A DNA stretch of 64,000 bases, taken from NCBI GenBank assembly GCA_963855995.1, contig OY979718.1, positions 42,033,559 through 42,097,558 of the forward strand, given 5' to 3'. Below, piece by piece: positions 13,892 through 64,000 of this stretch. The DNA is from Muricea muricata. Lineage: Eukaryota; Cnidaria; Anthozoa; Malacalcyonacea; Plexauridae. A program made the position numbers and the translations under genes. Within the stretch, counting starts at the first letter, position 1. Every line of letters starts with the position of its first letter. Below the pieces are notes generated by a model. It was not told the DNA's origin and ran no database searches. It saw nothing but the letters and a program-made list of their open reading frames with translations.

Positions 13892-16800
13892 ATGGCCGCA
13901 TCAGAGGTACTTCCTTATGTAAGAAGCGTATTTAATGGTGTATATGATTCAGTATTTGGGATAATAACTTTTTTCAAACCTATATATCGAAAGGAAGATA
14001 CCATTCGTGTTGGAACTGCACCAGAAACAGAAGATGCTGATACAAACAGAACTAGGAGGCGACCCAGGCCATCCACAACAGCTTCGCAGAAATGCCAGAG
14101 GTTGTCTATAATATTATATATTTTGAATGCATGAATTGAAGCATGCAGGGCGGTTCATACAATGCGAGGGTGCTAAAGTTTGACCACTGCCCACATTGTT
14201 ATATTCCAAAATTGTCTCCTGGGAAAGGATTGTAGAATTGTTCTCTTTGTATTTCACTATTTCCTAGGTATTAAATTTGTAGATATACTGTATGGCGTAT
14301 GCTTTATACGTACATATATGCTTTATGCCTAATTTGCTGGAATGCATAAGTGCATAGTAACAAATTCACTAAAATATTGAACACGTTGGTCAGTAGTAAT
14401 AATTACCAAAGCAAGTTAGGGTTATATTTGTGTGTCTTGTTTGGTATGAATTTTGGTTGTGGTTTAATACTACTCTATATAGTGTTCATCATATTGTTAA
14501 AAGCTCAACAGCAAGGTTCAGGGAGACATGGTGTTGTTGATATTTATAATTAAAGCTCACATCTTAACAATAATATGAACGATTTTAACATATATTTAGG
14601 AAGGTTCATTCGTCCATGACCACATGTACATAAGCAAAGAATAAAGTACATAAAACTTCATATAACACTAACTATAGTGTCTCATTATATTGCATCACTA
14701 CAATAATGTCAACACTCCCACTTAATGAGATCACCAGTCTATCACCAATGTCATTTGATTTCTTCAATTCCCATCATACTTCTGAACTTTTCGAACTTGA
14801 CTTTTGATACTGGTTTTGTCATGATGTCTGCCATCATATCTTCCGTTTGACAATTGTCAACATTAATAACTTGATCGTTTACTTTTTCTTGAACAAAATG
14901 AACTGATATGTCAATATGCTTTGTTCGATTATGGAATTTTGCATTCTTCGATAATTGTATTGCACCTCGATTGTCCTCGTAAATAAGAGATGGTGTTTCT
15001 TGTGTCAATCCTATGTCATTCAACAATCTCCTTAGCCAGACTGCTTCTTGTGCTGCTGAACTGAGTGCCATATATTCTGCTTCAGTTGTTGATCGGGATA
15101 CACAATGCTTGTCTCTTGCTTTGCCAACTAACTGTGCTGCCATCAATCTGGAATACATATCCAGATGTTGAACGTCTAGTGTCCAAGTCCCCAGCCCAAT
15201 CAGCATCTGAATACCCAGTAAGAGAACAAGTGTTGCCTTTCGCTTTATAGATAAGACCAAAATCAGTTGTTCCTTGTATGTATCGTAGAATCCTCTTCAC
15301 GCCTTGCCAGTGCTCCTTTCCCGGTCTTGACATGTATTTTGAGAGAATTCCAACAGCAGATGCCAGGTCAGGACGTGTTGCAGTTGTTGCATATGTCAAA
15401 CATTCTATTATCTTTTGATACTCTTGTACATTCACAGGATCCTCATCATCAGACAACTCATAGAACTTCTTACCTGGTTCCACTGGTGTAGAAACAGGTT
15501 TGCAGTGTTCCATATTGAATCTTTTCAGGACTCCTTCAAGATACTTTGGTTGGCTAATGGTCAGAGTTCTCGACTTTCGATCATGTTTCACCAACATGCT
15601 AAGAACATGATTAACTTCCCCAAAATCTTCAATCTTGAATCTCCTTCCAAGTGACTTCTTCTCTTTGTTAAGCATAACAATATCATTTGAGAACAACAGG
15701 ATATCATCCACATGAAGAGATAAGATGACAAAGTTAATCTTGCCATTCTGCTGTTTCACAGATTTGATATACAGACATGGATCAGCTCCGACTTGTTTGT
15801 AACCATCTGATTTAAGATAACCATCAATTGCCGAGTTCCAACAACGAGCTGCTTGCTTCAAGCCATAGAGACTTTTCTTTAGCTTGCAAATATGTTTTGG
15901 ATTTTCTTCGTCTGTGTAACCATCAGGTTGTTTCATGTAGATCTCCTCGTCCAGGTCACCTTGCAGGAAAGCAGTGTGGACATCCATCTGATGTACTTCC
16001 CAGTCGCAAGTGTTTGCTAGTGCTAGTAAAGTTCTAATGGACGTGTTTCGTACAACAGGAGAAAATACTTCATGGTAATCGATACCCTCAGCTTGAGAGT
16101 ACCCTTGGGCTACAAGTCGTGCCTTGAATCTGTCCACCGTCCCATTTTCATCTCGCTTTACCTTAAAAACCCAACGGCTACCTACGACATTCTTTCCTTC
16201 TGGTAACGGAACAAGTTCCCAGGTATCGTTACTGATCAGTGAATCATATTCAGAGTCGGTTGCCTCTTTCCATTGAATACAATGATCTCCACTCCAGGCT
16301 TGCTTGATGTTCCTTGGCTCACTGATATCTGCGGCAAGATCCTCGACATTATACAGTTCTTTATCATATCGAGCAGGAGGTCGTCGCCGTCTTTGGGGAT
16401 TCAAATTCTCAACATTTCGCATAAATGTTTCTTCATAGGTTTCTCCCACTGGTTGGTGGTGGTGTGCAGGTTCAGGAACGTTATTTTGTACATGATTTTG
16501 TTGATCATTCGCATCATCAGGGTTATCACTATCAGCTACATCTGGAACGGGGAATGGGTCAAATGGTAACTGTTCATAATTTGGTTTTGATGATTGTTCA
16601 CCGTTATTAAACTCATGGAACCTTTCTTCGTCGAACACGACATCTCTACTTCGAATAACAATGATTGGTAGACATGTCATAGAGCTTGAAACCTTTTGTC
16701 CCTTCGGGGTATCCCATAAATATACACATACGAGATTTCCTTTGCAATTTCTTACGCTGATGATCAGGAATGTGCACGAATGATTTGCATCCAAATACTC

Positions 16801-19800
16801 TCAGGTTTGACACATCTGGCTTACGATTGAACAGTTTTTCAAAAGGTGTTTCACCTTTCAATGCAGTAGTTGGGCTACGATTTCGAAGATACACTACGGT
16901 ATTTGTAGCTTCAGCCCAGAACTCGAATGGAACTTTGGAGTGTGCCATCATCGAACGACTAGTTTCCAAAAGTGTCCGATTCATCCGTTCTGCTACCCCA
17001 TTTTGTGCCGGGTTGTACGGAACTGTGGTTTGGTGTACAATTCCACTTTCTTTCAGGTACGCTTTGAAAGCTTTCGAGCAGTATTCACCACCGTTATCTG
17101 AGCGTAGGACTTTGACATTCTTTCCAGTAGTGTTTGCTGCGTAGTTTGCAAACTCTTTAAACTTCTCCAACACTTCGTCCTTGCTTTTGATGAAATAAAC
17201 GTGTACATACCTCGAATAGTCATCAACAAATGTAACAAAGTACTTTGAATTTCCATGGGAATTGACATGCATTGAATTACACACGTCGCTGTGCACAATT
17301 TCAAATGGTTGGGTTGCTCGGTAAGGTATTTCTTTCGGATAGGCAGTCGGATGTTGCTTCCCCATCATACAGGATTCACAAGTAGAGTTGTCTCCACTCT
17401 GTCCCGTAGTGTTCATTCCATCAACCATGTTTTCATTGATCAACTTTGTAAGATTGTCCACTCCTAAGTGACCAAAACGACAGTGCCAAAGGTGTAGATT
17501 CGGATCTTCTTTTGCAACATTAACCTCTTCATTACTTGGGATAACTTTCAGCATGTAGAGTTTTCCACACATTTCTCCAATAGCTAACAACTTCGAATTT
17601 CTTGTAACTTTACACATATCTCCTTCAAACGTAACAAGTGCACCTAATTTCACCATTGCTCGGACGGATAGTAAGTTCTTTCCAAGGTCAGGAAGATACA
17701 GAACTTCTTTCAACGAAATATTTTGAATACAACCATCCAGATCAGCAATTACATCATAATTTCCTTTTCCATAGGCCAAAATGGTACGATTGTCCCCGAG
17801 ATTTACTTCGCAAGGTTTCTTGAATTCTACAAAGTCAGTGTAGATGATCTCTCTCAAAGGTCATATGCTGTGTTGCCCCCGAGTCAACTATCCAGCCAGA
17901 CTTGTTTTCCACATCAGACGTATGTAGTGCTTCATTATCTACAACATTGTCATGCTTCTCTTTCTTGGCACAATGAGCGGATCCTTTCCCTTTCTTTTGA
18001 GTGTTACTTTGCTCAGCATTCAACTTCGCTTTACGCTTTGGACAGTCTCTAGGAAAATGTCCACGTTCTTGACAGAAATGACATGTTACACGGAATGATT
18101 TCCCAGTATATTTTCGTTCAGTGTTTCCACCAGTTTTCTTTTTTCCTTGTGGTGACGTATAAAATTTTCTACCACCTCGTTGGACTGAAAAAGCATCCTC
18201 ACATTTCTTTGACTTTGTGTCATTCTCCCTATCGGCATCATTTAAAAGCATTGCTTTGACTTTTTCATAAGAGAGATTGTCCTCACCAACAGCATCCAAG
18301 GCCGTGATTAAAGGTTTAAATTCTTCAGGAAGACTTGCAAGAACAGTCATAGCTAACTCTTTATCATCAATCGTCTGTCCCATTTCCTTTAATTGGTCGT
18401 GCAGGGAACGTAAATGATTAATATGTGCCAACATATCTCCCCAACTTTGAAATCTACACGAATAGTATTGCTGTCTCAATCTCACCTTCTGCAAAATAGA
18501 CTCACGTGCGAATTGGCTTTTCAGGGCATCCCAGGCTTGTTTTGCGTTTTGCGTATCTCTGACGTGTATTTGCTGCTCAGGCTCCACGGCCAAGCAAATG
18601 TACGTCCATGCCTTTTTTGCCGCTGTTTCAAAAGCTTTCTTTACTTGCGCCGAAGCAGTTTCTTCAGGAGGTTCAGCCGATCCACCCGCGTGGGCAAATA
18701 AATCGAAACTCTCCAAGTAAAGTCGCATGTTGAACGCCCAGGATCTATAGTTAGATCCGTTCAATTTCGCCATCCTCAGCACATTTTCGACTGCAGACGC
18801 CATCGTAATTTTTTTGCAATTTGATACCGATTTTCGCTTATTTAACAAACATTTCTTAACTTAGAGCCTTCCTGGGCCCATAACCTGTTGATATTTATAA
18901 TTAAAGCTCACATCTTAACAATAATATGAACGATTTTAACATACATAAACTGTTTTAGGAAGGTTCATTCGTCCATGACCACATGTACATTAGCAAAGAA
19001 TAAAGTACCGAAAACTTCATATAACACTAACTATAGTGTCTCATTATATTGCATCACTACAATAATGTCAACAGGTGTACCTATTACTCCATAAATATAA
19101 ACTCTGGTAAACCAAAGTGAGACAAACCTACTACCGAAAGCAAGACAATTGAATAAATTACGTAGGATAACTAGTGAGAAAAATTCATTAGTAATACTGC
19201 GATTTCCAGTTGAGCGTGGAATACGGAAAGTTTGTTCGTTAAGTTTTGTAGTTTGAATAATAAGTTTGTGACATCATTCCACAATGTTACTAGGGTGCGT
19301 TCGCAAGGCTAAGCATGTAAACCTGATTTCAAGCATGTATTTAAATTATATAGAGAATTGTAACGTTTGCTCACGAATCTTTGTTATAAGTAACTTCGCA
19401 TATTACTCTCGATTTCAGTTTGCTTTTGAAAAATCACTTCGAATGTTCGTTTGTAAGTTCAGAATGCTCATTGCTACGTTCCAATGTTTGTTTTGAAGTT
19501 CGTTCCGAGTATTTACGATGATTGAACAGTGAGCAATTTGATTAGCTGACTTATTATGGCAGCCAATCAGAACTTGCAAAGCTGGCTCATCGTAAATTGT
19601 CGGAACGAAATTCAAAACAAACATTGGAACTTTGCAACGAACATTCCGAACTTACAAATGAACATTCGAAGTGATTTTTCAAATGCACAGAGAAATCGAG
19701 AGTAATATGCGAAGTTACTTATAACAAAGATTCGTGAGCAAACGTTACAATTCTCCAAATAATTTAAATACATGCTTGAAATCAGGTTTACATGCTTAGC

Positions 19801-48390: not shown

Positions 48391-51300
48391 CTTGGTCTTT
48401 TTCTCGTGCGTTTGAAACCATCGGTGATATACTCTCGTCTTGCTTCTAAAAGACATGCAAAACAATAAATATTACTTCGTACACAATACCGAAAATACGT
48501 CTCTAGTTGATACATTCTAGTCAGCTACCACTAAAAGCCTTTGCTCGGCATGTGGCAATTTTTTCGCGGTTGTTCGCCTCTTCTCTGCCCTGTCCACACT
48601 ACCGAATGGCATATATTAAAAGCGAAATAGAACATCCTAGATATTGACCATAATCTTATAACTGATACTAACATTAGGTTTTGACATTAGGTTTTGAAAA
48701 TATACATGCAGTAGGTTTTGGTTATATATTTACTGCGCTCAAAATATTGTTTTTCGCACCGTCGTTTAATATCCTGTACTATATAATTCAGAAATCAAGA
48801 TACTTTCTATTTTCAGATATCTAATATATAAAGAATGGCTTTATACGAACTTATGCACGTGCAAGCAGCATAAAAAACCAGTGCATGCATGAATTAATTT
48901 AGACATTCGATTTTTTCTTGCAAGAGAAATGTATACGAGAAATAAATATTTAAAGTTTTCGTATATAGCTATCTGTATATTGCATCATTACAAATGGAAT
49001 ATTTAAGATGTACATACATTCTTTTCTGGTGTGTTTTTCTTCTTCTTCAAAACGACGACCATGGCTATTATTACAACAAAAATCACAATTGTAATAGCAA
49101 TCACAATACCAGCAGTGGCACCTCCTCCAAGATCTCCCGTACTTTCACCATCAGCACCATCTTTTCCTATTGTTAAAACCATAAGTTATTTTTATTAACG
49201 ATAGATATTGAAAGGTATACAGGGTGTTCCAAGCAAACCGGGACCATTAAGAAATTCTTAACAAATTCTTTATTATTTTGAATGAAATATATAACAGAAT
49301 ATATATTATTATATATTGGCAGGTGACACCTGATTTTTCTGGATTTTGATTGATCAAGACTGTCTCTGAAGTGATCGTCACTGGCCACAATGATTATATT
49401 TTTGCTTAGTGATTCACATCCATTGATTGATTGACTGATTGAGAACTTCATTTTGTTCCGTATTGATTAGCACATTACACAACTACATATAGTATAACAT
49501 ACACCGTGGACACCCGTCGATACACAAACATAAGATCTGTAGAAATGAGGATCAGTATTTGGTGTGTCAGCTTTCGACCTGTGTGGCTCCATGCGACTAC
49601 CGCCATTTGCAATTGAGCGTACACCGTGCGTTTTTTACGTGTTTGTTTCGTATTATGAAACTTGATGTTTATTGGCCAAAACTTTTACGAAACAAACTCG
49701 TAAAAAACGCACGGTGCGCGCTCAATTACAAATGGCGTAAGCATCTATTTAATGTACTCAAGACCTTTTTCTTGAGATGTTCTAGAGCTAGGGGATTTAA
49801 ATCTAGCGTAGACGAGGTAGCCAAGCACATCATTGCCATTTTGCTGAGAAAATAAACGACTGTTTTAGAGAAAAGGAATACTCGCAAATTCATATCTACT
49901 AATTGACCATGCAACGCCGAGCTTAGGGGTAGGGGGCAACACTGTCATATGTTTGAGAGTGTTTCCGAACACAGGTACAGGTACACTGTAAATCCTGAAG
50001 AGCTAATCAAACTCAACAGTGTTGCATAAATGGTGACTGAGAAAATCTTCCAAATTAACTCGGTAGAGTAACAGTGCAAATCAGCTAGGTACCTATACGC
50101 TGTTGTGCTGCATGTTATTACTACAGTTGTTGGTGCTGGGTGATGTTTTAATCTATTCTGTTATGTCTTTGTAAATTAAATGTTTGGTCGTTGACGGTTT
50201 GGCTAAGAATAACATGGAACAAAAAAAAGTGAAAGAAAAATATTCGAATAGATTCCGAATTCAAATTCTTCTAATTGGTCGAAATTCACCTAATCAAAGT
50301 GTTCTTCGACATAAATCGTCAAGAAATACGTTTTACACCTCGTTTAAAATACAGTCCTTTTCCCTACCATGAGCACCATCCTTTCCCGCTTTTTCGTTCA
50401 CGGTGATGCTAATTACGTTTGATTCGGATCCACCAGCATCATTTTCTGCAACACATTTATAAGACCCTGAATCTTTCAGTTCAACTTCTCTTCCGTTGAA
50501 CAAATACGGACTGTTTGCTCCGGGAACCAATTTATTGTTATGATACCAGGTAATTCTTGCTTTAGGTCTTCCTTCTTTAACTGTGCGGCATTCTATAGTT
50601 ATACGGTCATTCACACTAACATTGGTCCTGTCGATTCTCAGCATCACTTTAGGAAGAACTACAAAACAAATTAATTGCTCCTACTTTAATTGAGTGCAAA
50701 AAAGAAATTCAGAGGCTCTCCTTTTGAGACACACAATTTTAAAAGATTGTTATATATCGGTAATATCACTTCTCAAATTCATGAATAATTATTAAGCATT
50801 TTGACTAAGATCATCTCATTCTGTCATGTGAATAGGCTTTCAAACACGGTAATACCCTGCACCAAGCACTAGTGTTCGATCATCAAACACCAGTGTTTCA
50901 TTTATGTTAATTCAAAAAACACTGGAAATGATTGTTTCTTAGCACACAATCATTACCACACAATGATTTTTCCTTCATTAGCATGCATTTGAGAAGCTAG
51001 TACGTCAATGAAATGATCTACTGATGGCGGTTTCCCACTTGGTGAATTTAAACACGCGAATAGAAAATTTGCTGCATGTTTTCGCGCGAAGGGACGATTT
51101 ACTTTTGATCTTTCAGCTGAAATCAAACGAAACTAATTAGGTTTGTACAAAAGCAAAAAGTCGCTTCCAGTGAAAAATGATACCAGCGACATAACGAGAA
51201 TTCCACTGTCTGCGACGCAGGCCACACTTCAACACTCTGAGATAATTCCGTACACCTGGGTAATAAGTCAGCAGATACTATGCACAACATATATTTTCTA

Positions 51301-54300
51301 TTTTCTGCTTGAACGTTATTAGACACTTATTATTAATTACTAAGTCTTGCTGGCAAAAAATGTGGGGCTATAGCCCTCCCCCCTGCCCCCTCAATAATGT
51401 TTGTTTTTGAGGTTTTTGTCTATTGCAGGCTGGTTGATTCATTGGATTGTGTTAGACTTGATGCTACAGCAATGGTACAAATACATTGTGAAATCGTAGT
51501 GTATATTACTGTGTACTCTGATAACTGGTCTGGAATGAGAGTACCAGGAATTCACATATTGGTGAGATTAGCAGTTTGACCACTCGTCAGATTTTATACT
51601 ATCGAACAAATTTATCTGCAGCAAACTGTGATCGCCTGAAGTTCATATTACATATGGATTTTTGTGCATCTTATTGGCAGCTTAAATAATTGGATGGAAA
51701 AATCCATAGTTTTAATTAATAGTTTTGTGTGAATGGTTGTTGTAGCAGATGCATTAAATTATGCTGTCGGCTACCGGTGCTTCTTTATTTTGGCAAAATA
51801 CATGTACAGTCATAAACATGATATCTTTTCGGCTTTGTTTACCCTGCTAATGCCTGCATATGTTATACAAGCATACGAGGCACAAGCAAATGAAGTTTCC
51901 AGTATTGATAGATATGCATAACTGATCAATCTATTGCTTCTCCCGGTACCTTTTTCGCGAGCCTTTAACCTGTAAGGCTATTAGGGAATGGATAGATATA
52001 ATCTGCTTAGTTCTTTGTTGTAAATTGTTTAAAATAATTAGCCATGCACATGTTATTGTAATTAAATATTTTGTACTGATTTTTTAACATTTGTCTCAAA
52101 TAATAGAAAAGAGTAGACACATTTCCAGATGTCTTACTGTTCATGCGCAGATACATGTACGCGTGGCGTACCCGGTACCCGTACCCGCGAATTATCTCGG
52201 CGGCCCTTATGTAGACTACATAAAGGCGCATGTCAGGAAAATAAAGAAAACCCACCTGAAATGAGCAACTTTCTACTGGATTTATCTTCATGTTTGTTTG
52301 AAACAAGCGTCACAAAAAAAATCTTGTCATGAGAAAACTCCTTCAAATCAGTTAGCATAAAGGAGAATTCCTTTGCTGAAATATTACCAGTCCAATTGAC
52401 TAATGCTGCATATTTTATTGCATTGCGTGGGTAATACTGGACGGGTGGTGGTGGACTCGATGGCAATGCGTAACCGAATCCGAAATATAACAGTTCGTCA
52501 CTTTCAGAGGTGTCCAACCGAGCCGCCAAAAGTTCTCTACTTCCATTATAACGCCAGCGAAAAGTAACATTATCCCCAACCAATACGGTCTTTGGCTCTA
52601 TTCCCAGAAACTCTATGTCAGCAGCGTCTGCGTAAAAATAAAAAATGGCACATTAAATATTATAGAAGTTTGCAATGGCAAATCACTTTAGATAACATCG
52701 ATATTTAAATAACCATGTATATTAAAGTCATTACAAGAATAGTCTTACATGGGGTGAAAACAATTTCAAATCATACGCTAACCATCGCTGCAAACGTTTC
52801 ACACCCGTAGGTAATGCAGATAGAAGCAATACATATTTTGAGCCCGTGGTTTAGCGAGCACTTATAAAAAGTCGAGTAAGGGATGTGATTATACCAGATC
52901 CCGCTTACCCGGGATCGAATAAAGCATAAAACGGTCTCGAGGTGTTGAAATAAGTCATTTTACGAAACGACACAACCAAAGTTAGAATACTTTCAGTATT
53001 GATGAATAAAGATATATTTTATAAAAAATTAATGCAAAACAGTCAACACCATGTTTATTTCATATGTCGACAAAATAAAAATCTCAGGCAATCAGGAATT
53101 GAACATTTATTTATCATATATATAGACGAGGACTCATATTCAATCCCGGGTAGGCCGTAGGCGAGATGATATAATCAGCCCCTAAAGAAAGCAATTTAAT
53201 TTACGCATGAGACAGAAACTTTCGTGATTCTCGCATGTACAATCATATTTTTCTGTTTCTAATCGCTAATTACATAGTTGAAGGTTAAAATGAAACAATA
53301 ACCTGTCGAACAGAGAGACAATTCTGGAAATTTTGCCACATTGTAACACCGTATACACTCTAGGCACCCTAGAGTTGCAAAAATGGTAATGTACATATTA
53401 CATCATATTGTTTTATGTAATGCACAAAGTATCGAACGATTGATCACGCATCTACGCATGTGGCGACCATGAGTTTAACGTTTTATCTGCGTTAATCGTT
53501 ACCGTTTTGACAAATGTTGAAGTGCATACGTGATTTAAAAAACAATTCATATACTTTTGAAGGTACTTTTACTCATGAAATTTTGATGTTTTGAAACAAG
53601 TCGTTTAAATAGAAAAATGACTTATCAAGTACGTGATCATGCTGTGTCAGTATTGAAACAGACCCAGTTAATTTTTGCCTAAGGAGTATAATTAAGTTGG
53701 AGATGATTGATTGGATTAAAACATCTTGTAATTACTCCTGGCTATTTCCATAGGTGGCCCAGAAATCGGTGGTTTTTAACCTTAAATAAATCAATCTTGT
53801 ACACAATATTACACGAACGTCGCGCGAGACTGACCGAAAATCGGACGAGAAAAAACAATTCCGTGAGTTTCTGACAGCATTAAAAGGAATATTATGTGCA
53901 AGATTGATTTATTTAAGGTTAAAATCACCGATTTCTGACTCACCTATGCTATTTCTGGTATCTTCCTCAGTTTGAACTAATGAAATTCACAATACTTTGT
54001 GCCAACCGAGACCACTGCCGAGACCCTGAATTTCGCTCCATTTCACGGGTTTTCAGGAAAAAATATGAATAAATAAATAGCGAAATATTATTACTATTAT
54101 TATTATTATTCAAATATTTAGAGGGTGGACACTTCAGTGTATAAAACACTGTTATCAATATGTGCCCTCATTACCTATTGCTATACTGATAGTACATAAA
54201 GTTTACTATGAAATATATAAGTTTTCATTACACTAGTTAAAAATAGGTACGCCTAGCGTACACGTGGGCAGCCGCGAAAAGATCGGCGAACTCAGAAATA

Positions 54301-57300
54301 AAATCGGCGAACTCAGAAATAATGCTGCTAGCTATCTCTTACTCTGCTGGTCTATTTTTGAAAAAAAAATAGTAAAACCCCTAAACAGCGACACGTAATA
54401 AACTTGAATGGCGGCGTAAATATATAAAGAACAGCATTTTGCCGCAAATTGCGACACGATGCGCTGCCATAATTAAACATAATAAGGTTGGGACGTTCTA
54501 TGGTTAAACAAGCTTTAGGCTGCCAGTCAGCTGTTTTCATAGAATTTATTATATGCACTATTGTGGCATCAACCATTAAAGGCTATACAGATTGGCAGCC
54601 GAAATCTTGTTAATAATTAAACATTTTACACAGAGACAACATTTTACTGAAAATACTGTATATATAATGCCTCAGTCACTTGTAACCACGGCCCCCCACC
54701 CCACCCCCGGGACATAGCGGGGATTGTTCAAAAATATAACGGGGATTTAACGCCATTTAACAGCGCAATATGCCCCGTAGAGCCGTGAAATGAACTACGA
54801 ATTTTAACATCGGGGAATCAAACCGGGATTTAACCAGGGTTGGTAGTTTGGCCTATTAGAGGCCAAATAACTCAATTTTGGCTTCTTTTTTTCTTGCTTG
54901 GCCTCAAAAAAAAAGTTTGGCCTTTTGGCTACTTTTTGGCCTCTTTCTATTTCAAAGTAATGCTTGGAAAATGTTTCGATCTTAGTTTGATTATATATGT
55001 TTAATTGTCATAATAATGTAGGTATACTAATTGTGATATTAAAGGCATTTAGTATTCATGAGGACTTTTAGTATAGAGGATTATTTAGCATTCATGGAAT
55101 AGATTGGTTGTGCTACGCAGTACACTAGACATCGCACTGGTTGTAAAAGAAAAGCTGAACAGTGTCAATACCCAAAACTATTAGGAATGAGTTTGCGATA
55201 AAATTGGGCTTTTTAGCATTTATTTGGCCACGTTTGAAAAATTGTAGTTTGGCCTCTTTTGGTAGATTTTGGCCTCTTTTTGCATAGCTATTTGGCTCCA
55301 AGCATGCGCAGGACCTACCAACCCTGGATTTAACAGCCGGTCTTAAAATGGCGTCCCACAAAACAACTTGTAGAAAGAATGATTTTTAATATGTTTATGT
55401 ATCCTTAGCAATTCATAAACTTACAGTAGGTATACATTAAATCAGGTTTTACCTTATTTATTTCAGCAATATTAAAAGATCTATTTGAAATTTGATATGC
55501 ATGATTGAACGCAATTTATAAACACGAGCTTTATATATTTGTTATATTAACTGTTACTATTATCTTGTTATATTGGCGTAATATTTTTAACACTTCATAA
55601 GGTTTTAAATTAATGTGTGATCTGGTTGATTTGGATGTTTTGAGGCCCTGCCATACTGGGGGTTTAACAAGTAACTTTGCACCAGGGGTGGGGAAATTAA
55701 CAGTTTTTAACACTTGGTTAGTGTTAAATTCCCCGCTATGTCCCGGGGGTGGGGGGGGGGGGGGGCGTGGTTACAAATGACTGAGGCATAATTATACTAG
55801 ACGAAATCTCAGGCGTTTCTCCAAGAAAGTTATCTAAATATTTCAGCGTGAGCATCTGGCCGTCGTTTGCTTGCTTGTCTAGGGAAGCTTTTAAGTACCT
55901 ACACTGTAGGGAACCTCGTTAATATACAGTGGGTTTAAAGTAAACAATGACAATTGAAATTCGTGGGTCAATTACCGTGAGAGAATTTTGAAACTATTTT
56001 AAATCTTGCAAATTGAAAAGTAAAAATAATCACACTTACAAACCTGTCAAGGTTGCAAAATTAAAATGCGTGGCACTCCCCCTATGAACTTCAAAATCCA
56101 CTTTAAATCTACTTTGACAAGATTTTGAAAATTTATTTTGTGTGCGTGAAAGAATATTGCGGAAAAAATGTGTGCCAATCACGCCAAATGCGTGACACTT
56201 GACATGTCTGCACTTATCAAAGGATAGAGGCAGCATGTATAAAAGTAGCTGCTGTCAATCACTAATTTGATACCTCTAGATAAAATGGATTTAATTTAAT
56301 GTTTTATAGCTACATATATTTTTATCATTTCATTAAACAAAACAAGACTAGAAAGTAAACAAAAATAAGTATTTAATTAATAGTTTTGCATTCTATTCAC
56401 TTTCTATGGCTATGATTAATTAATGTATCATGGGGCCAGCTTCCAATTCAACAGTATCTGGAAACAAAGATCTTTGTTTCTTAATGCAATGTCATCTAAT
56501 GATATGTTTTATAAAAGCTATCTAATGCACATCAGCTGGCATTTGAGAGTATTGATATCTGTCGTTGCCATGCTTACCCATGTGGATGGTTAGGTGCAGA
56601 CGTGTTCAGCTAATAATCTGGGGATTTGCATTACTTAGAATCAGGTCCAACTCACTTTGACCTGTCCATGCAGAACCTGACCACAAAACGTCTGCACTTT
56701 GTCACACCGAACGTTCATGTTCAGTGGAAGTCATGACTGCACTAATTGCATTAAGAAAGAGAAAAATTCTAATATTTAACCCTCAGCTTCAGCTATTCTT
56801 TCATACACTTTGCTGCTTTAGCAGGCTATCTGATAACTAATGTCCTGTCAGTCAGCTTGGCATTCTCTATTACTGGTCACCTTAGGCTATCATAGGTTGT
56901 GCCTAGACTGTGTGCAGCTCCTATGATATTAACCTTGCTTATTATGGAACCTCATTTACACAAGGAGCATAAATTACTAAAAATACAAAGGATGAAAACA
57001 TAGCTGCATCTGCTATCTGTTAAAACACAGCAAATGTGAAGATCAGTAAAATTTTTGGTTCGATTGATTATAAACAAGTCATACTACAAAATATATATTC
57101 AATAAATATAATAAAAACATTCTATTTTTAACCCTAACATTTAAACACACACTTGGCCCAACAAATGCAACTAAATATGAGGCAGGTGTCATAAACACTC
57201 TAAACTTGGTTAACCAACAGCCTATGCACAGACTTAGGCTGGAAGAAAACAACACCTTTCTTTCCACATATGTATGTACATTTTTCATGACAAGTCAGTG

Positions 57301-58382
57301 TTTTGAAAATATTCAGAGCACTCAATCAGTGCCACCACTCTACTGCTCAGAGCAAATAGGTTGAAACAAAATACAAAATTCTGCAGGTGCTAATCAGTGT
57401 TTCAGATCCTTAGACAATCATCGATATCGTTAGCCAGTTTTTACCCACAAGTCAAATGAAGCTACACACACACAGACACACACACATTCAAGCTCAAACT
57501 AGACAAAGAGAGCTTGAATGTGGGATGAATTAACTATATACCACATATCTCAAATTTCAATTAAAAGCTAATGTTCTCTGAAACAAATAAATTAATCGTA
57601 TTTTATAGAACATTTCGTCATATGCATCTTTCAGATAAATGAAGAGCCCTGGTGTGATATAGCTGCTTGATAGAGGTAAACAAAAACTTGTTGAAATATA
57701 ATATAAACAAGTGCTTATGGATGCATTTTAGTTCCATCTTGATTTCCTGTTTCTTACTGTAAGGCAGTCAAAATCCACATCCAATTATTCTGTTTGTCAC
57801 AATAACATAACATTCCTTGGATATTGTGGAATGATGTCCAGGCTTAACGAAGTCAAATAATTGAGATGCTTACTATTATATTTAATAATCAATGCTTATT
57901 TATAAAAGCAGTCGTGTAGGCATGTCTACATATTCAGTAATATACAAGTATATACGACATAATGAATCCAATATAACTTAATTGTAGCCTATCAATACGA
58001 AACACCTAAAATATGTCCAGCAAAAATTTATGAAAGCAAACTGTTTACGTTTAAGCTTCACTGACTACCCGTTCAGGGTACACGATTATTTTACAACCTG
58101 TGTCGTATTTCTAGAGTCAGTGCTAACATTTGTTCTATGGAATTGCTGAAATACGCGAGCAGCATAAGTCTAAGTGCTCAAATCGAACACAAGATTACAT
58201 ATCGAATTCAACTGGTAACGTTAATTGCAACAAAATATTTCGTTTATATTTGCTCCGACAAAGATCAACAACCGACTTGCAACATATAAAATAATCGTAT
58301 AAATTTATATCAATATACCTGATACCTTGACTGCAATTATTAATAGACTCGCTAACGTATAATGCATCCTGAAACATTCCAT
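48391..58382 (-). CDS. Ig-superfamily type I membrane protein (V-like domain, I-set domain, stalk, TM); 3' end not resolved
   Basis: Exons on the - strand: 58319-58382 (signal peptide, MECFRMHYTLASLLIIAVKVS), 52256-52627 (V-like domain), 50368-50658 (I-set domain), 49018-49166 (stalk and TM), 48391-48445 (start of cytoplasmic tail). Junctions around both Ig exons are all phase 1. The V-like exon (VGDNVTFRWRYNGS, FMLTDLKEFSHDKIFFVTL) contains no cysteine and four N-glycosylation sequons. The I-set exon has both disulfide cysteines (TIECRTV, DSGSYKCVAENDAG) and ITWYHNN. Then follow a Gly-X-Y-like stalk (GKDGAHGKDGADGES), a helix AGIVIAITIVIFVVIIAMVV and KKKK stop-transfer. The role is probably cell-surface recognition or adhesion. 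The layout recalls hydrozoan Alr-like proteins, but orthology is not shown. Confidence 0.8.
49597..49741. mobile_element. Hairpin MITE, about 145 bp, in an Ig-gene intron
   Basis: CGCCATTTGCAATTGAGCG and its complement are joined by inverted CACCGTGCGTTTTTTACG segments and AAACAAAC tracts. It lies between the TM and I-set exons. Confidence 0.75.
50659..52255 (-). other. Intron between I-set and V-like exons
   Basis: No further Ig exon recognised. AT-rich unique sequence. Confidence 0.5.
53750..53947. mobile_element. Inverted-repeat MITE, about 198 bp
   Basis: ATAGGTGGCCCAGAAATCGG at the left and the near-complement at the right are followed by inverted TTAACCTTAAATAAATCAAT. It lies in the long first intron of the Ig-type gene. 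Confidence 0.75.
54086..54180 (-). mobile_element. Short LINE 3'-end fragment
   Basis: A TTA-rich run followed by CACTGTTATCAATA and GTGCCCT-like sequence matches the 3' end of the LINE at 8880-8945 (CACTGTTATCAATAGGAGCCCT). It is a heavily 5'-truncated relative in the same orientation. Confidence 0.6.
54667..55789. mobile_element. Inverted-repeat transposon, 1.1 kb, carrying a nested hAT MITE
   Basis: The ends ATGCCTCAGTCACTTGTAAC and ATGCCTCAGTCATTTGTAAC are inverted and continue through G/C-rich sequence with CCCGGGACATAGCGGGG. The interior repeats GGGGATTTAAC-like motifs. A separate element is inserted at 54835-55326. No transposase found. Confidence 0.8.
54835..55326. mobile_element. 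Nested non-autonomous hAT element, 492 bp
   Basis: The ends are CAGGGTTGGTAG in inverted orientation with an exact 8-bp duplication GATTTAAC at 54827-54834 and 55327-55334. The interior has several copies of TTTTGGCCTCTTTT in both orientations. Confidence 0.9.
55790..58318. other. Unique intron sequence with a CA microsatellite
   Basis: Upstream part of the Ig-type gene's first intron. A short CA repeat is at about 57465-57490. I see no exon. Confidence 0.5.
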
Positions 58383-58565
58383 CACAACAACGGACAACTA
58401 TTAAATCTCTATTCTCAAGAGGCGGACTAGCTGAGTCAGAAGAAAATGAATATGGATGAAGGACGCTTCAGAGTTCGAAAGGATGATTGGTGTTGCCAGG
58501 GATAAGAAGGGCGCGGCTTTCCGTTCGACAAAGACGTTGGCGTTTCCGCGTTTCTTGGTTCTAAT

Positions 58566-61464
58566 CAGAGGAGGTTGGACAGCTGTCACGTGACATTTTC
58601 CGACCAATGATATTACGTTATTTTCTGAGCGCTAGCAAGAGGCCAGTCGACTAGAAAATAAGCATCAGGCTTAAAAACATCTAAATATTTCGCGTTTTGA
58701 TGTAAATTCACATTCGAATACCATTCAGAATGTTTTAAGAACAATTGGTGGACCCACAAACGAAATATTGTGTAAGTATAACGTCATTTACTACTTTAAT
58801 TCCGTTCTTGAAGGGAGTGCTATGTCGTCATGTGATTACCCAAATCCGTTTTGGGTGTCAATTTTCAAAAGCAAAAATCTCGAATTTCCATGGTTCGATT
58901 TCGCTCATTTTTGGCTAGATGCTAGATCAAACACTTATCTTTCGTTTAAACTGTCGGAACCCATCAGAACCTCTCACCGTTTTCGAGATATTCGCCTTTG
59001 AAATTTGCCTATCATTTTTCGTGCGGTAAATATGGTATGTCTTTATATCGAGTTAATTTCCCCAATTTCTCGTGAATTTTAGTAAAGAACGTTGATGCTT
59101 TGGTGCTAAGTTGTGCTATTGATGCATTTGCTGCCGAATATCTCCCGTATTAGTATTTCAAGAATGTTTAAAAGGTGAAACGTTTTGTATTAAAATTTTT
59201 ACAGATTTATGTTTAACTTGTGAGTAACCTGAGATCGTCAGTCTAGTATGGAAAGACTATATTTTATTATTTGGTTTGTTCTGCGGATTTATAGGTCTTG
59301 ATGTCAGATTGACAAAAGAGGAACCGTTTAAACTGAATAAAGAGCAAAATAGAGATTTGAAAAAAGGTACGCAGATTCACATTTGTTTACTATAGCTTTG
59401 GTGTTTCCCCTGTCATGCACATTGCATTGCTAGCATTTGGTTTTCCCCTGGCGACTTGTCATATATTATATTCTAGAATTATATTCAAAATAGAATATTT
59501 TTATTTTTTAAATAGAATTGATGAATGGAGCTTTGAAAAGATTCTTGGTCTTCATCATGTTCACAATATTCTTGGGTTTCACTATACCATTATGCAGTGA
59601 ATTTGAGTGGGGGTCAACCTCAGTTGAATTTATCCTTATGCTGTAGTAGAATGAGCAAATGATATAAAACTGGATGTTTTTGCATACCAAAACAAGACCA
59701 ATATATAACATCAATGTAATATAATCATTAGTATTTTCTATATACCATTTAGGCAAGCAATGCTTACCAGGTTCTCTCACAAACTTCATCAAATATTTTA
59801 CATAGCTTGTAAATTAAAATGGAGCTTAACATATGTTTGATTAATTTCTGTAACATGACTTTTGGTACAAGTCTCAAAAATTTGTGGGCCCAGTAAGAAA
59901 AAAATTCATTTATTGTAACAAGTATACACACAGAACAATTATATTTAAAAACAACTTGTGTGTAAACAGATATATGCAGTGTTGTCATAACAATAACAAT
60001 GATAAACTAGCTTTATTGGACACAATTTACAAACATTTAAGCATTTTACACATCTGATATATATACAATATATTTTAAAGTCTTTCTAATGTCTATTCTG
60101 ATGTCTTTTGATATTGAATTACAATAAAATATATATGAATGTAATAATTAATGTAATGTAAGGAATGTACTTTTGACTAAGGAATGTGACTCTTTGGTAT
60201 AACATTTTTTGAATGAAAAATTAATGACTGGTGTATGAGACACATGTCAAATGCACCCCTACTTTCCCTACATAACAAGCATGCAAAGCTTAACACACAT
60301 GCCTAAGCTGTTCCTTTTTTATCAGATTATTTGAAAACACCTAATGCTAAAGATGTCTGCTCTATATACTTAATATGTTCAACACAAGCATCAATGATAT
60401 ATATTTCCTGCAGCCATAAGAGTGTTGATACTTGTATAATTCTGAGGCAATAGTGCATAATTAACCAACATGAGTCTAATCTCCTCCAAATCTAAATCCA
60501 GAACAATTGTCTTTTTATCCAGCCAAATAATAACCTAATATAAATTTGCACTATCTTGTCTTCCCAAAGAGCAATGTATGCTTGTTCCAAGTTATCTTGG
60601 TTGTTTTTTTAATGGGCAGCACCAATGTTTTTAGATCCTACAAAATGTGTGATCTCTTCATCTTCACCACATTCATTATCGCACTTTCACTGTCACTATC
60701 ATCTCCATTATTAACATCAAATGCATGAGACAACCAAACCAGTAGATTTTTTCTACAAATGCATATTAGAAAATTGAAGTATATATGTAATAGCTATTAA
60801 AGTGAGAATCAAAACATGCTGTCTGAAATCTGAATACATTTATAGTTAAATCACAATGAGTGCTTTCAGAACAAGCACACATATTGCACTTAAAGTAAAT
60901 CAACATATATTTGTGTATTTAAAATTATGAATATTTTACGGTTTCCTTCAACAAAGAAATGTAAAATTTATACAAAACAATTTCCTTTAACAAAGAAATT
61001 GAAATTGTAAAATATGAATAATAAACACACAAATAGAACCCCAACTTGTGATTCATCTAAGAAAGTTTATCATCTTATTAATTACCACATGAACAAATGA
61101 TAAAACAACCAGGAATACTTATTACCAGGAACACGTTTCACATCAATGATACAAGGAGATTTAAGTCTGTTCACTTTCAAGATATTAAAAGCAATTTTGT
61201 CTCTCAGGCAATTACAGAAACCCCGCACGCAATGTCAAAAAAGTATACTCGGATCAGCAAAGCCACATCGTAAAAAGAATCGTAGAGACAAAGTTGCACA
61301 GTGCTATTTTCTTGGAGAATTACAGCCCGATAGTCTCGTCTTTCGAAAACTTCCATATTCTAGAGATGTTTACTTCGCTGAGGTCAACGCGTGAATGAAG
61401 CCAATCATCAAAGCGCATGCAAATTTCCCATGATGCTTTGCGAGTAGCTGTCCAACCTCCTCTG
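58566..61464. mobile_element. 2.9-kb DNA transposon with 8-bp target duplication (hAT-type) in a divergent promoter
   Basis: Inverted ends are CAGAGGAGGTTGGACAGCT (19 bp, identical), flanked by exact GTTCTAAT at 58558-58565 and 61465-61472. Eight-base duplications fit hAT (or P). The interior is AT-rich and I find no transposase. A 76-base exon-like stretch, 59291-59366 (acceptor TATAG, donor GTACGC, LDVRLTKEEPFKLNKEQNR), and a frame at 61146-61394 are unexplained. It separates the two divergent signal-peptide exons. Confidence 0.85.
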
Positions 61465-61966
61465 GTTCTAATAGACAGCTCTCGGGAGCAGATCTCTAAC
61501 TCAGAAACTACTCTGAAGGTGAATTTTTCATAAACAACGGTTTTTTAACATGGGAATTCAGTTTTTAATGAAGAAAATAATAAAAAACTAAACAAAGTAA
61601 AACGTTTAGTATGTCGGACAACTAAAAATACGATTTTCGTTACACTCTTGCCTGTGTCTTGATTTTTTCAAATTTGAATTGCAACAACTTTAACTTTGCT
61701 ATATCATAAGTATAGCCTTCAATAGATTTCAGATCAGTTATAATAATTTACCGTGAATTTCATAAATTCGTACCCCAACAAATCTTATCCAAATGTACGG
61801 AAACTTGACCCACCGTCATCCTGACCGACATATTAATGTGCATATTATGCATTGAAATTAACAGCCATACGTCACAAGTGTAAACATTGTTTGAGCATCA
61901 TTCGCTTGGCCACATTATTGTCTTCGATTATTTAACCTCCTGCCATTTATATCTCCGAGGATCGCT

Positions 61967-62030
61967 ATGAATCTACTAAGCGCTCAAGTTTTCTTGTTGG
62001 TTACGTCGATAGCCTGCTTCACTGATTCAG
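61967..62030 (+). CDS. Signal-peptide exon of a second, divergent secreted or membrane protein gene
   Basis: ATG then MNLLSAQVFLLVTSIACFTDS and donor GTATAC in phase 1. Length (64 bases), phase and type match the signal exon of the Ig-type gene at 58319-58382 on the other strand. This suggests a head-to-head paralogue. No domain exon is found between 62031 and 64000, so later exons should lie right of the window. That it is an Ig gene is inference. Confidence 0.6.
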
Positions 62031-64000
62031 GTATACATTGGTTCTATTAAAATAATGTGACTTGGTATCTCGTTAGATCACTATACGTATACATAGATGG
62101 CTTTTTAAGTTCTTTCAAGATATCAAACATGCTGACATTGTACAGTAGGAATCTGGTCAAAGTCATAGACATTTTAAAGTAGCGAGTTCTTAAAACACAT
62201 ATCTATAAAAGTTGCATTCTCTATAATTTGTGAAGCCTATTGCTTTGACTGACGATTTTTACTAAACAGATCAGAGGACGGTGGTATCTTAAAGTTTTGA
62301 ACATTGATATAGTAACTCGGAGCAGGTCTTGTATAAATAATACATCTAAAAGCAGCTACGGCAAAGGGAAAGAAACTTTACCTGTGGAATTCTTTACCTT
62401 TTGATCTATATATATTGTGAATATTGTGACATAGGAAAAGGCGAAGTGGTTGCCTAACAATGAATGACTCAAAGAGAACACAGACCATGTAATTCGTAAG
62501 AATCAAACAGCAATATATACTAGCAATTATGTCAATAAACAAAATGTTGTTCGACAAAACAGCTAACGCCATCAAGGCTTTCATCAAGTAATCGGCTCGT
62601 CCATATAACTGTTTGTTTTAGTAAACTTAAGTTACTTTAAATGCTTTCCGTGTGACGCAGCAGCGTTAGACAAATATTTCTACATCCGTTTCGAAATCAG
62701 AACACGAACAGAAAGAATCGAATACACTGAAATGTAATAAACGAATGCTCATTAAAGTTTATTAGAATATCTTTCAACTTTGTGAATGTATATCCGACTA
62801 TCCGTGCTGATGGACAATCTAGTGATTGAAATGGAAATTGTTACAAAATTTATCTCACACTCGGTGTAGTTACGTTTTGGAAGAGAACTTCATGTCCTAG
62901 ATTTTTAATTGTATTATAACCAGTTGAGGATTCTATTGTATTGAGTTGCAATTAATATGTAACTTGGTGGTGACATGATTTGTGTTATTACTGTAAGTTT
63001 TATTGACCAATACTAATTAAAGTTTATATTGTATTTATATGGTATTTATATTGTAGACAGTGTGAAACAAAATTGAATATGACTATGATTGAATATAATA
63101 ATATATGTGCTATAGAGTCCATGGCAGGTAATGCATTAATTAACAAGACACATGTTCGGGTATTCTTATGCACCATTATGGCTGCCACTTAAAAAGTAAA
63201 TATTGATATGGATATATTGAAATCAACAAATTAATGCTTGAAATTGACATAGTTGCAATTTCACATTCTGGTGCAAGGTGATTGGAGCAATTAGGACATG
63301 AACATTACAAATATATGAATGGCAATGTTGCACTATTTTGGGGGACAGAACACCTGATTTGAATGCAAGATAGATGCTACATCCAGTGGCCAACATCCAG
63401 GCATCCACAAACCACTTGTGGGGGACTCCCAGGACTGGGGGTTCAGAAATGTAATTTCCTGCTTTCTGGCACAAGTTTTTGTAACAGTAATAAGCCTAGT
63501 TGAAATGTGACTTTTGAAACATGATAGACATACACATTTTATTGATTATGCATGAGGCACCCTGCACTCCCAATAGAGAGGTTCAGATCAACCTTGAACC
63601 CAGGGCCTTTTGGTGGGTTCAGATTTGACTACCACTATCACTACCTTAATCAATCTTTCAACCAATCAGTTGAGCTTGGTCTACCCAACCACAGATTACT
63701 ATTGTACCAGATGTCTATCTTCGCCAAATATCTGTTACAAGTTTTTGACTGCTTACGCGAGCTGACGAAAGATTTCCGCCATGTTCTTAGTAAGCGCAAT
63801 CCACGCCATACAACGTAAGCAACAGTCTAACCGAGTCTAAAACCTATGCATGTCTGACAAAGGCCTGGCCTGGACGCGAGTCTGACGCAAGTGTCCGCCA
63901 TGTTCTTAGTAAGCGCAACATACGTGATATTGCGAAAAATGACGAGTGCAATTCGTGATCAGAGTGAAAATCGAGAACACAAATTTACCTTGCGAAAACA
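62031..64000. other. Sequence to the right edge, presumably intronic, with a direct duplication
   Basis: No exon recognised. At 63756-63810 and 63878-63932 two direct copies share TCCGCCATGTTCTTAGTAAG (about 122 bases apart). Confidence 0.5.

Follow-up and report, generated by a model that had tools for sequence, protein, structure and literature searches.

Two divergent immunoglobulin superfamily genes

Two predicted immunoglobulin superfamily (IgSF) genes lie head to head, on opposite strands, in a 64,000-nt stretch of Muricea muricata DNA (the window; C3:42033559-42097558) and its right flank, with a hAT-like DNA transposon between their starts. The assembly searched comprises 453,007,491 bp in 74 contigs, and coordinates above 64,000 carry the window numbering on into the right flank. 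The presence of introns, IgSF genes and Copia, LINE and hAT-like elements is in keeping with animal DNA. Each gene is predicted to encode a type I membrane protein, and the two are most likely ordinary neighbours without a dedicated joint function. The exons of the left and right genes, with splicing predicted, are as follows.

58319..58382, minus strand: left gene exon 1, signal peptide, 21 codons plus one base, donor GTATAT
52256..52627, minus strand: left gene exon 2, V-like, 124 aa, phase 1-1, acceptor ACGCAG, donor GTGGGT
50368..50646, minus strand: left gene exon 3, I-set/Ig domain, phase 1-1, donor GTAGGG
49018..49166, minus strand: left gene exon 4, a stalk (GKDGADG) followed by the transmembrane helix and a KKKK stop-transfer, probable end at AAT/GTATGT
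61967..62030, plus strand: right gene exon 1, signal peptide, 21 codons plus one base, donor GTATAC
67778-68143, plus strand: right gene V-set exon, Pfam V-set 9.2e-11
74415-74699, plus strand: right gene Ig exon (Ig2), Pfam Ig_2 1.4e-10
75932-76174, plus strand: right gene third Ig exon (Ig3), Pfam Ig_2 5.3e-4
76674-76937, plus strand: right gene FN3 exon, Pfam fn3 1e-5, barely above the cut-off
79160-79291, plus strand: right gene transmembrane exon, in the joined frame

An earlier reading made from the letters of the window alone (the sequence-only reading) had placed a signal-peptide exon on each strand, at 58319-58382 and 61967-62030, each of 21 codons plus one base and ending in phase 1 at a GTATA donor, and place, length, phase and donors all matched in our analysis. 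The left exon (minus 58382..58319) reads MECFRMHYTLASLLIIAVKVS followed by G at donor GTATAT and has a second in-frame ATG at 58367; the right exon (plus 61967..62030) reads MNLLSAQVFLLVTSIACFTDS followed by G at donor GTATAC. Both are 64 nt long, end in phase 1 and share a TCAG/GTATA junction (the slash marks the splice site).

The left gene runs in the order signal peptide, cysteine-free V-like domain, I-set domain and transmembrane helix. Its exons join as 58382-58319 to 52627-52256 to 50646-50368 to 49166-49018 with AG and GT at each junction; the joined frame, tested down to 49021, was open, and all introns before the transmembrane exon were in phase 1. Exon 2, with no cysteine among its 124 residues, is called V-like from its length, position and strand-like pattern, and its fold is putative; against solved structures it gave one match only (E 4.9), which is not meaningful, and a genome search at E ≤ 0.001 returned nothing beyond the exon itself. 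Exon 3 matched Pfam Ig_2 (5.9e-13), Ig_3 (1.2e-10) and I-set (1.6e-9). The left ectodomain matched 99 sequences of solved structures, with FCRL5, titin and contactin-2 among the 60 matches listed, and these matches sit mainly on or around the I-set part. When exon 4 was read on past this probable end, a stop followed ten residues beyond KKKK, and no cytoplasmic exon was recognised for this gene.

The right gene follows the order signal peptide, V-set, Ig, Ig, FN3 and transmembrane helix in one open joined frame. After the 64-nt first exon, each exon length is divisible by 3, with all junctions in phase 1 and GT-AG sites throughout. The third Ig exon falls under the Pfam cut-off (Ig_2, 20.6 bits vs 27). 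The right ectodomain matched 85 sequences of solved structures at E ≤ 0.001, the 60 matches listed including RPTP delta, contactin-2, DSCAM and NCAM1. The V-set domain by itself had JAML as its sole strong match (6.3e-10), with weak matches (E 0.004 to 0.09) to VEGFR2, sodium-channel beta-3 and nectin-2. Its B-strand cysteine is replaced (IAIPWTF), and its one cysteine is at the F-strand position.

With splicing as predicted, each gene combines a signal peptide, Ig domains and one transmembrane helix in a single joined frame, the combination by which we classed both as IgSF type I membrane proteins. The sequence-only reading had anticipated two divergent cell-surface genes, at least one of them of Ig type, and had pointed to the sequence right of 64,000 for V-like and I-set exons; both genes carry Ig domains and a transmembrane helix, and V-set and Ig exons are present right of 64,000, in frame.

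One of the two signal exons could be a chance open reading frame (ORF), the Ig exons on that side using another first exon. Signal-like ORFs were defined by an ATG start, an open frame, a best 9-residue hydropathy of ≥2.2 and a last base G before GT, and both strands of 184 kb (the window, 40 kb to its left and 80 kb to its right) were scanned for them. The scan gave 47 ORFs of 16-32 codons ending at any G/GT, 6 of exactly 21 codons, and 2 with 21 codons and G/GTATA, which are the pair itself; the rule was written after the pair had been seen, so that its exactness flatters the pair. With 47 in 184 kb, signal-like ORFs are by themselves no rarity, a second copy of the left signal exon was not found in the genome, and the gene models are known from sequence alone, all of which would suit a chance ORF. 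The exact 21-codon GTATA combination is no background product, being confined to the pair, and both exons adjoin a CpG-rich stretch. Both stand above chance because each joins in phase 1 to Ig exons downstream on the same strand; a chance ORF on either side is quite improbable.

The interval between the two starts

The start codons lie 3,584 bp apart with the hAT-like element and 677 bp apart after its removal, in close agreement with the approximately 680 bases that the sequence-only reading had counted without the transposon. The interval is made up of the following parts.

58383..58565, no strand: left half of the original intergenic region, GC 0.46, CpG observed/expected ratio (o/e) 1.29; left target site duplication (TSD) GTTCTAAT at 58558-58565
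58566..61464, no strand: hAT-like DNA transposon, 2,899 bp, with perfect 19-nt terminal inverted repeats (TIRs) CAGAGGAGGTTGGACAGCT
61465..61966, no strand: right half of the original intergenic region with the leader of the right gene, CpG o/e 1.12; present, interrupted, in a second copy of the block (see below)

The target duplication is 8 bp long (GTTCTAAT, at 58558-58565 and 61465-61472). An 8-bp TSD and CAGAGG TIRs presumably mark hAT elements, and the element was placed in this class by its 8-bp TSD and short TIRs and by its membership of a multicopy family. A genome search that scored 40 of 789 candidates, making the copy number a lower bound, listed 54 matches, 16 of which (window copy included) span 1-2899, and five other copies are 99% identical. 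These near-identical copies mark the insertion as young. The element resembles hAT DNA transposons in its 8-bp duplication, CAGAGG TIRs and 2.9-kb multicopy family; it differs in that a transposase was not recognised in this copy, in which the longest stop-free stretch lying wholly within the element is 108 aa and for which no dedicated transposase search was made. It is apparently non-autonomous.

For comparison with the two halves of the original region, CpG o/e is 0.82 over the window, 0.96 at 50000-54000 and 0.66 at 54000-58300. Few known core promoter motifs occur in the region, namely a TATA-like motif at 61945 in reverse orientation, one ATTGG at 58486 and two CGTCA half-sites. Scans for tRNA, Rfam families and bacterial promoters gave nothing of use.

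Other repeats were noted in passing. C1, which at >122 Mb is over twice the size of C3 (60.7 Mb), carries 40 of the 54 listed matches of the hAT family and may be a repeat-rich chromosome. Inside left intron 1, an inverted repeat at 54664-55792 has 45-nt arms that lie 1.04 kb apart and are 87% complementary, and is perhaps another small DNA transposon. A retroelement on the minus strand extends across several ORFs at 14751-18860 of the window; from the look of its proteins we take it to be Copia-type.

A second copy of the block on the same contig

One close relative of the right V-set exon, 98% identical, lies elsewhere in the genome, at C3:26230218-26230577. The 184 kb round the pair were compared with 100 kb round this relative, with a finer comparison using 57500-92000, and a collinear chain of 16 pieces was found that pairs 57670 to 88778 with C3:26213186-26248535. 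This is a segmental duplication of ~31 kb within one contig, its copies 15.9 Mb apart and with further insertions in either copy. The sequence-only reading had proposed looking for paralogues along the chromosome; this block copy, with its damaged right gene, lies on C3, and the left I-set exon has 28 relatives other than itself, none of them on C3.

The copy holds two pieces from the left of the hAT site, 57670-57822 and 58511-58557, directly joined, and the duplicated block probably once took in the start of the left gene. The pieces of the block, those left of the hAT site among them, are kept in sequence in the copy, so the divergent arrangement probably predates the duplication. What the copy lacks is one segment.

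57823..58510, no strand: segment with the left signal exon and proximal upstream sequence, not in the copy (C3:26.213 Mb), found once in the genome

For this 688-bp segment we prefer a deletion in the copy over an insertion in the window, a direction that we infer; insertion in the window was rejected on the single genome occurrence of the segment and the lack of a target duplication at its ends. The hAT element is absent from its site in the copy, and its insertion probably followed the duplication because its relatives are 99% identical, compared to a block divergence of 5.9% in introns and flank (598/10,190). Where the copy lacks the hAT element, a tandem CATGATTCTAA was weighed as an excision footprint and dropped, the insertion probably being later; slippage is the better fit.

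The right gene of the copy looks degraded from its sequence. The signal exon there remains open and differs by 7 substitutions without any indel; no Ig3 exon was found, and the frame of the transmembrane exon is broken by indels and interrupted by a stop. Between the copies, Ig2 (17/284), FN3 (15/264) and transmembrane (7/144) exons differ at the non-coding rate, and only the V-set exon is clearly below the introns among the right exons (8/365 vs 598/10,190, P = 0.002). Codon alignment of signal, V, Ig2 and FN3 exons gave pN 0.038 and pS 0.086. The likeness of the V-set exons while the rest of the copy decays may reflect late selection, gene conversion or chance. We dropped the idea that the copy proves that the right gene works alone, as the copy looks degraded.

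Upstream of the right gene, the copy has a 6.7-kb insertion at the base matching 61842. Over 61473-61966 the copies differ at 19/494 positions compared to 598/10,190 (P = 0.06), and over 61500-61966 at 15/467 (P = 0.014), a span whose start bound was chosen afterwards. The block copies form a natural experiment, since in the window the right upstream region is separated by the hAT element from an intact left start, and in the copy the left start is gone.

An open frame at 77907-78116 (plus strand; MIYDDLKRL...EGTYLLGY), between the FN3 and transmembrane exons, is open in both block copies, with 4 synonymous and 11 non-synonymous changes over 70 codons. It may be an alternative tail exon or chance.

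Origin, surroundings and joint regulation of the pair

The equal length and phase of the two signal exons, and their common TCAG/GTATA junction, could suggest an inverted duplication in which both first exons derive from one ancestral signal exon. The two are identical at 26/64 bases, with a codon-shuffle mean of 22.7 and 958 of 5,000 shuffles reaching 26, and none of the nine listed inverted repeats of ≥16 nt in 54000-64000 pairs the exons. The left and right N-terminal domains have no confident alignment: hhalign, run with single or near-identical sequences, gave a probability of 0.3, although 974 of 1,000 shuffles scored lower in a global alignment. On the shuffles, the repeat list and the V alignment an inverted duplication is not supported, and we consider it highly improbable. 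IgSF genes commonly have a phase-1 first exon followed by symmetric phase-1 domain exons, and equal phase is expected because this is their usual layout; the equal length is a mild coincidence and no evidence of common descent. Neither N-terminal domain has the B-strand cysteine. We read the two as belonging to a single, very broad class, probably without close paralogy.

The sequence-only reading had also suggested a possible edge of a recognition-gene cluster. No other Ig match lies near the pair in the scored genome lists, and a cluster edge is not supported by the Ig_3, V-set or I-set lists or by motif scans. In the Ig_3 search, the best 150 of 652 candidates were scored, all of them above the cut-off; none of these matches lies within C3:36.02-45.57 Mb, and groups of them occur at C2:4.20-4.36 Mb, C10:1.38-1.43 Mb, C3:51.29-51.50 Mb and elsewhere. 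The left I-set exon itself is not among these 150, so that weaker Ig exons are invisible there. For V-set, 150 of 217 candidates were scored and 67 matched, ranks 8 and 9 going to the right gene and its copy; among those scored, the pair has its nearest other V-set match at a distance of 3.47 Mb, and the copy has one at ~1.05 Mb. The left I-set exon had its 28 non-self matches at E ≤ 0.001 (125/125 candidates scored), the best ~30% identical and on C51 and C15. Motif scans of the window and flanks (184 kb) returned only exons of the pair and two frames that are not Ig-like; they are a weak screen, which missed the third Ig exon of the right gene. At this sensitivity the pair stands alone. The by-eye guess has become two concrete gene models, in which back-to-back IgSF surface genes stand and no cluster is visible.

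Ig exons elsewhere in the genome showed arrangements of their own. Ig exons with a distant likeness to the left I-set exon follow one another on the minus strand at C51:2-282 kb and C15:4.6-7.7 Mb, 10 of the 28 matches lying on C51; the runs on C51, a short contig, are possibly a tandem Ig gene cluster and a better candidate for a recognition cluster. At C2:4.31-4.36 Mb, Ig exons of equal or near-equal scores are regularly spaced at ~1.6 and 2.1 kb, like tandem domain-exon arrays.

For the pair itself, the 677 bp that once separated the genes would hold transcription starts on both strands, each gene being read away from the other. The leftward product would be a short receptor with signal peptide, cysteine-free V-like domain, I-set domain, short stalk, transmembrane helix and lysine-rich stop-transfer, and the rightward product an adhesion-type receptor with signal peptide, V-set, Ig, Ig, FN3 and transmembrane helix. 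In each, exon 1 would encode the signal peptide, and its phase-1 end would let symmetric phase-1 Ig exons join in frame. Both proteins would most likely be cell-cell adhesion or recognition molecules, acting through the outermost V-type domain. The exons with their frames and phases, the domain matches, the divergent order, the transposon and the segmental duplicate can be read from the sequence itself, to which we add transcription, a shared promoter, adhesion function and the order of events as inferences.

Some observations weigh against the preferred reading of two IgSF surface genes that start in this region. Core promoter motifs are nearly absent (one TATA-like motif at 61945, in reverse orientation only), and the transposon now puts 3.6 kb between the starts. 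The left V-like exon matched no Pfam family at E ≤ 1. Between the copies the right signal exon differs at 7/64 bases vs 598/10,190 in introns (P = 0.10), if anything faster. Finally, the copy lacks the left signal exon and its right gene is degraded, so that it says little on constraint on the pair.

The upstream data are consistent with a promoter, without being proof of one and least of all of a shared one. A single bidirectional promoter with co-expression is plausible, and in a stronger form the genes would be a co-regulated receptor pair, driven by one bidirectional promoter in the same cells and serving joint self/non-self or homotypic recognition as haplotype-linked partners. The 677 bp between the starts before the insertion, the CpG-rich flanks, the lack of the canonical disulphide in both N-terminal V-type domains and the lower upstream divergence (the post hoc span at P = 0.014, the full one at P = 0.06) would fit such a pair; the N-terminal domains show no relation that hhalign could detect, no clustering is seen in the scored genome lists, the hAT insertion now splits the region, and the duplicate lacks the left first exon. 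We hold a co-regulated pair to be unlikely. Still less likely, to the point of being a long shot, is a linked recognition module of disulphide-free V receptors with one promoter and one haplotype, outside the large Ig clusters and recently rewired by the hAT element. Two ordinary, divergently ordered IgSF neighbours remain our preferred reading, and a likely one.

Among known systems, Alr proteins of Hydractinia allorecognition have a V-like domain followed by I-set, the order also predicted for the left gene. Compared by description, both systems consist of IgSF surface proteins; they differ in that a tandem cluster was not seen round this pair at the sensitivity of our searches. The Hydractinia allorecognition complex, on chromosome 3, is described with 40 genes that are Alr or Alr-like (PMC11876637) and that of Podocoryna with 22 putative Alr genes (PMC13119343). 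No report of a divergent IgSF pair of this kind turned up among the papers listed, and we claim no absence. Divergently paired genes with bidirectional promoters have start sites <1,000 bp apart, according to PMC2670823. The present pair is like them in lying on opposite strands with 677 bp from ATG to ATG before the transposon, and unlike them in the 3,584 bp of today, both distances being taken from start codons and not from start sites. Compared to adhesion-type IgSF receptors (RPTP delta, contactin-2, DSCAM and NCAM1, and JAML), the right gene differs in the replaced B-strand cysteine of its V domain and shares with them the V-set, Ig and FN3 domains and the single transmembrane helix, a likeness by sequence that does not imply orthology.

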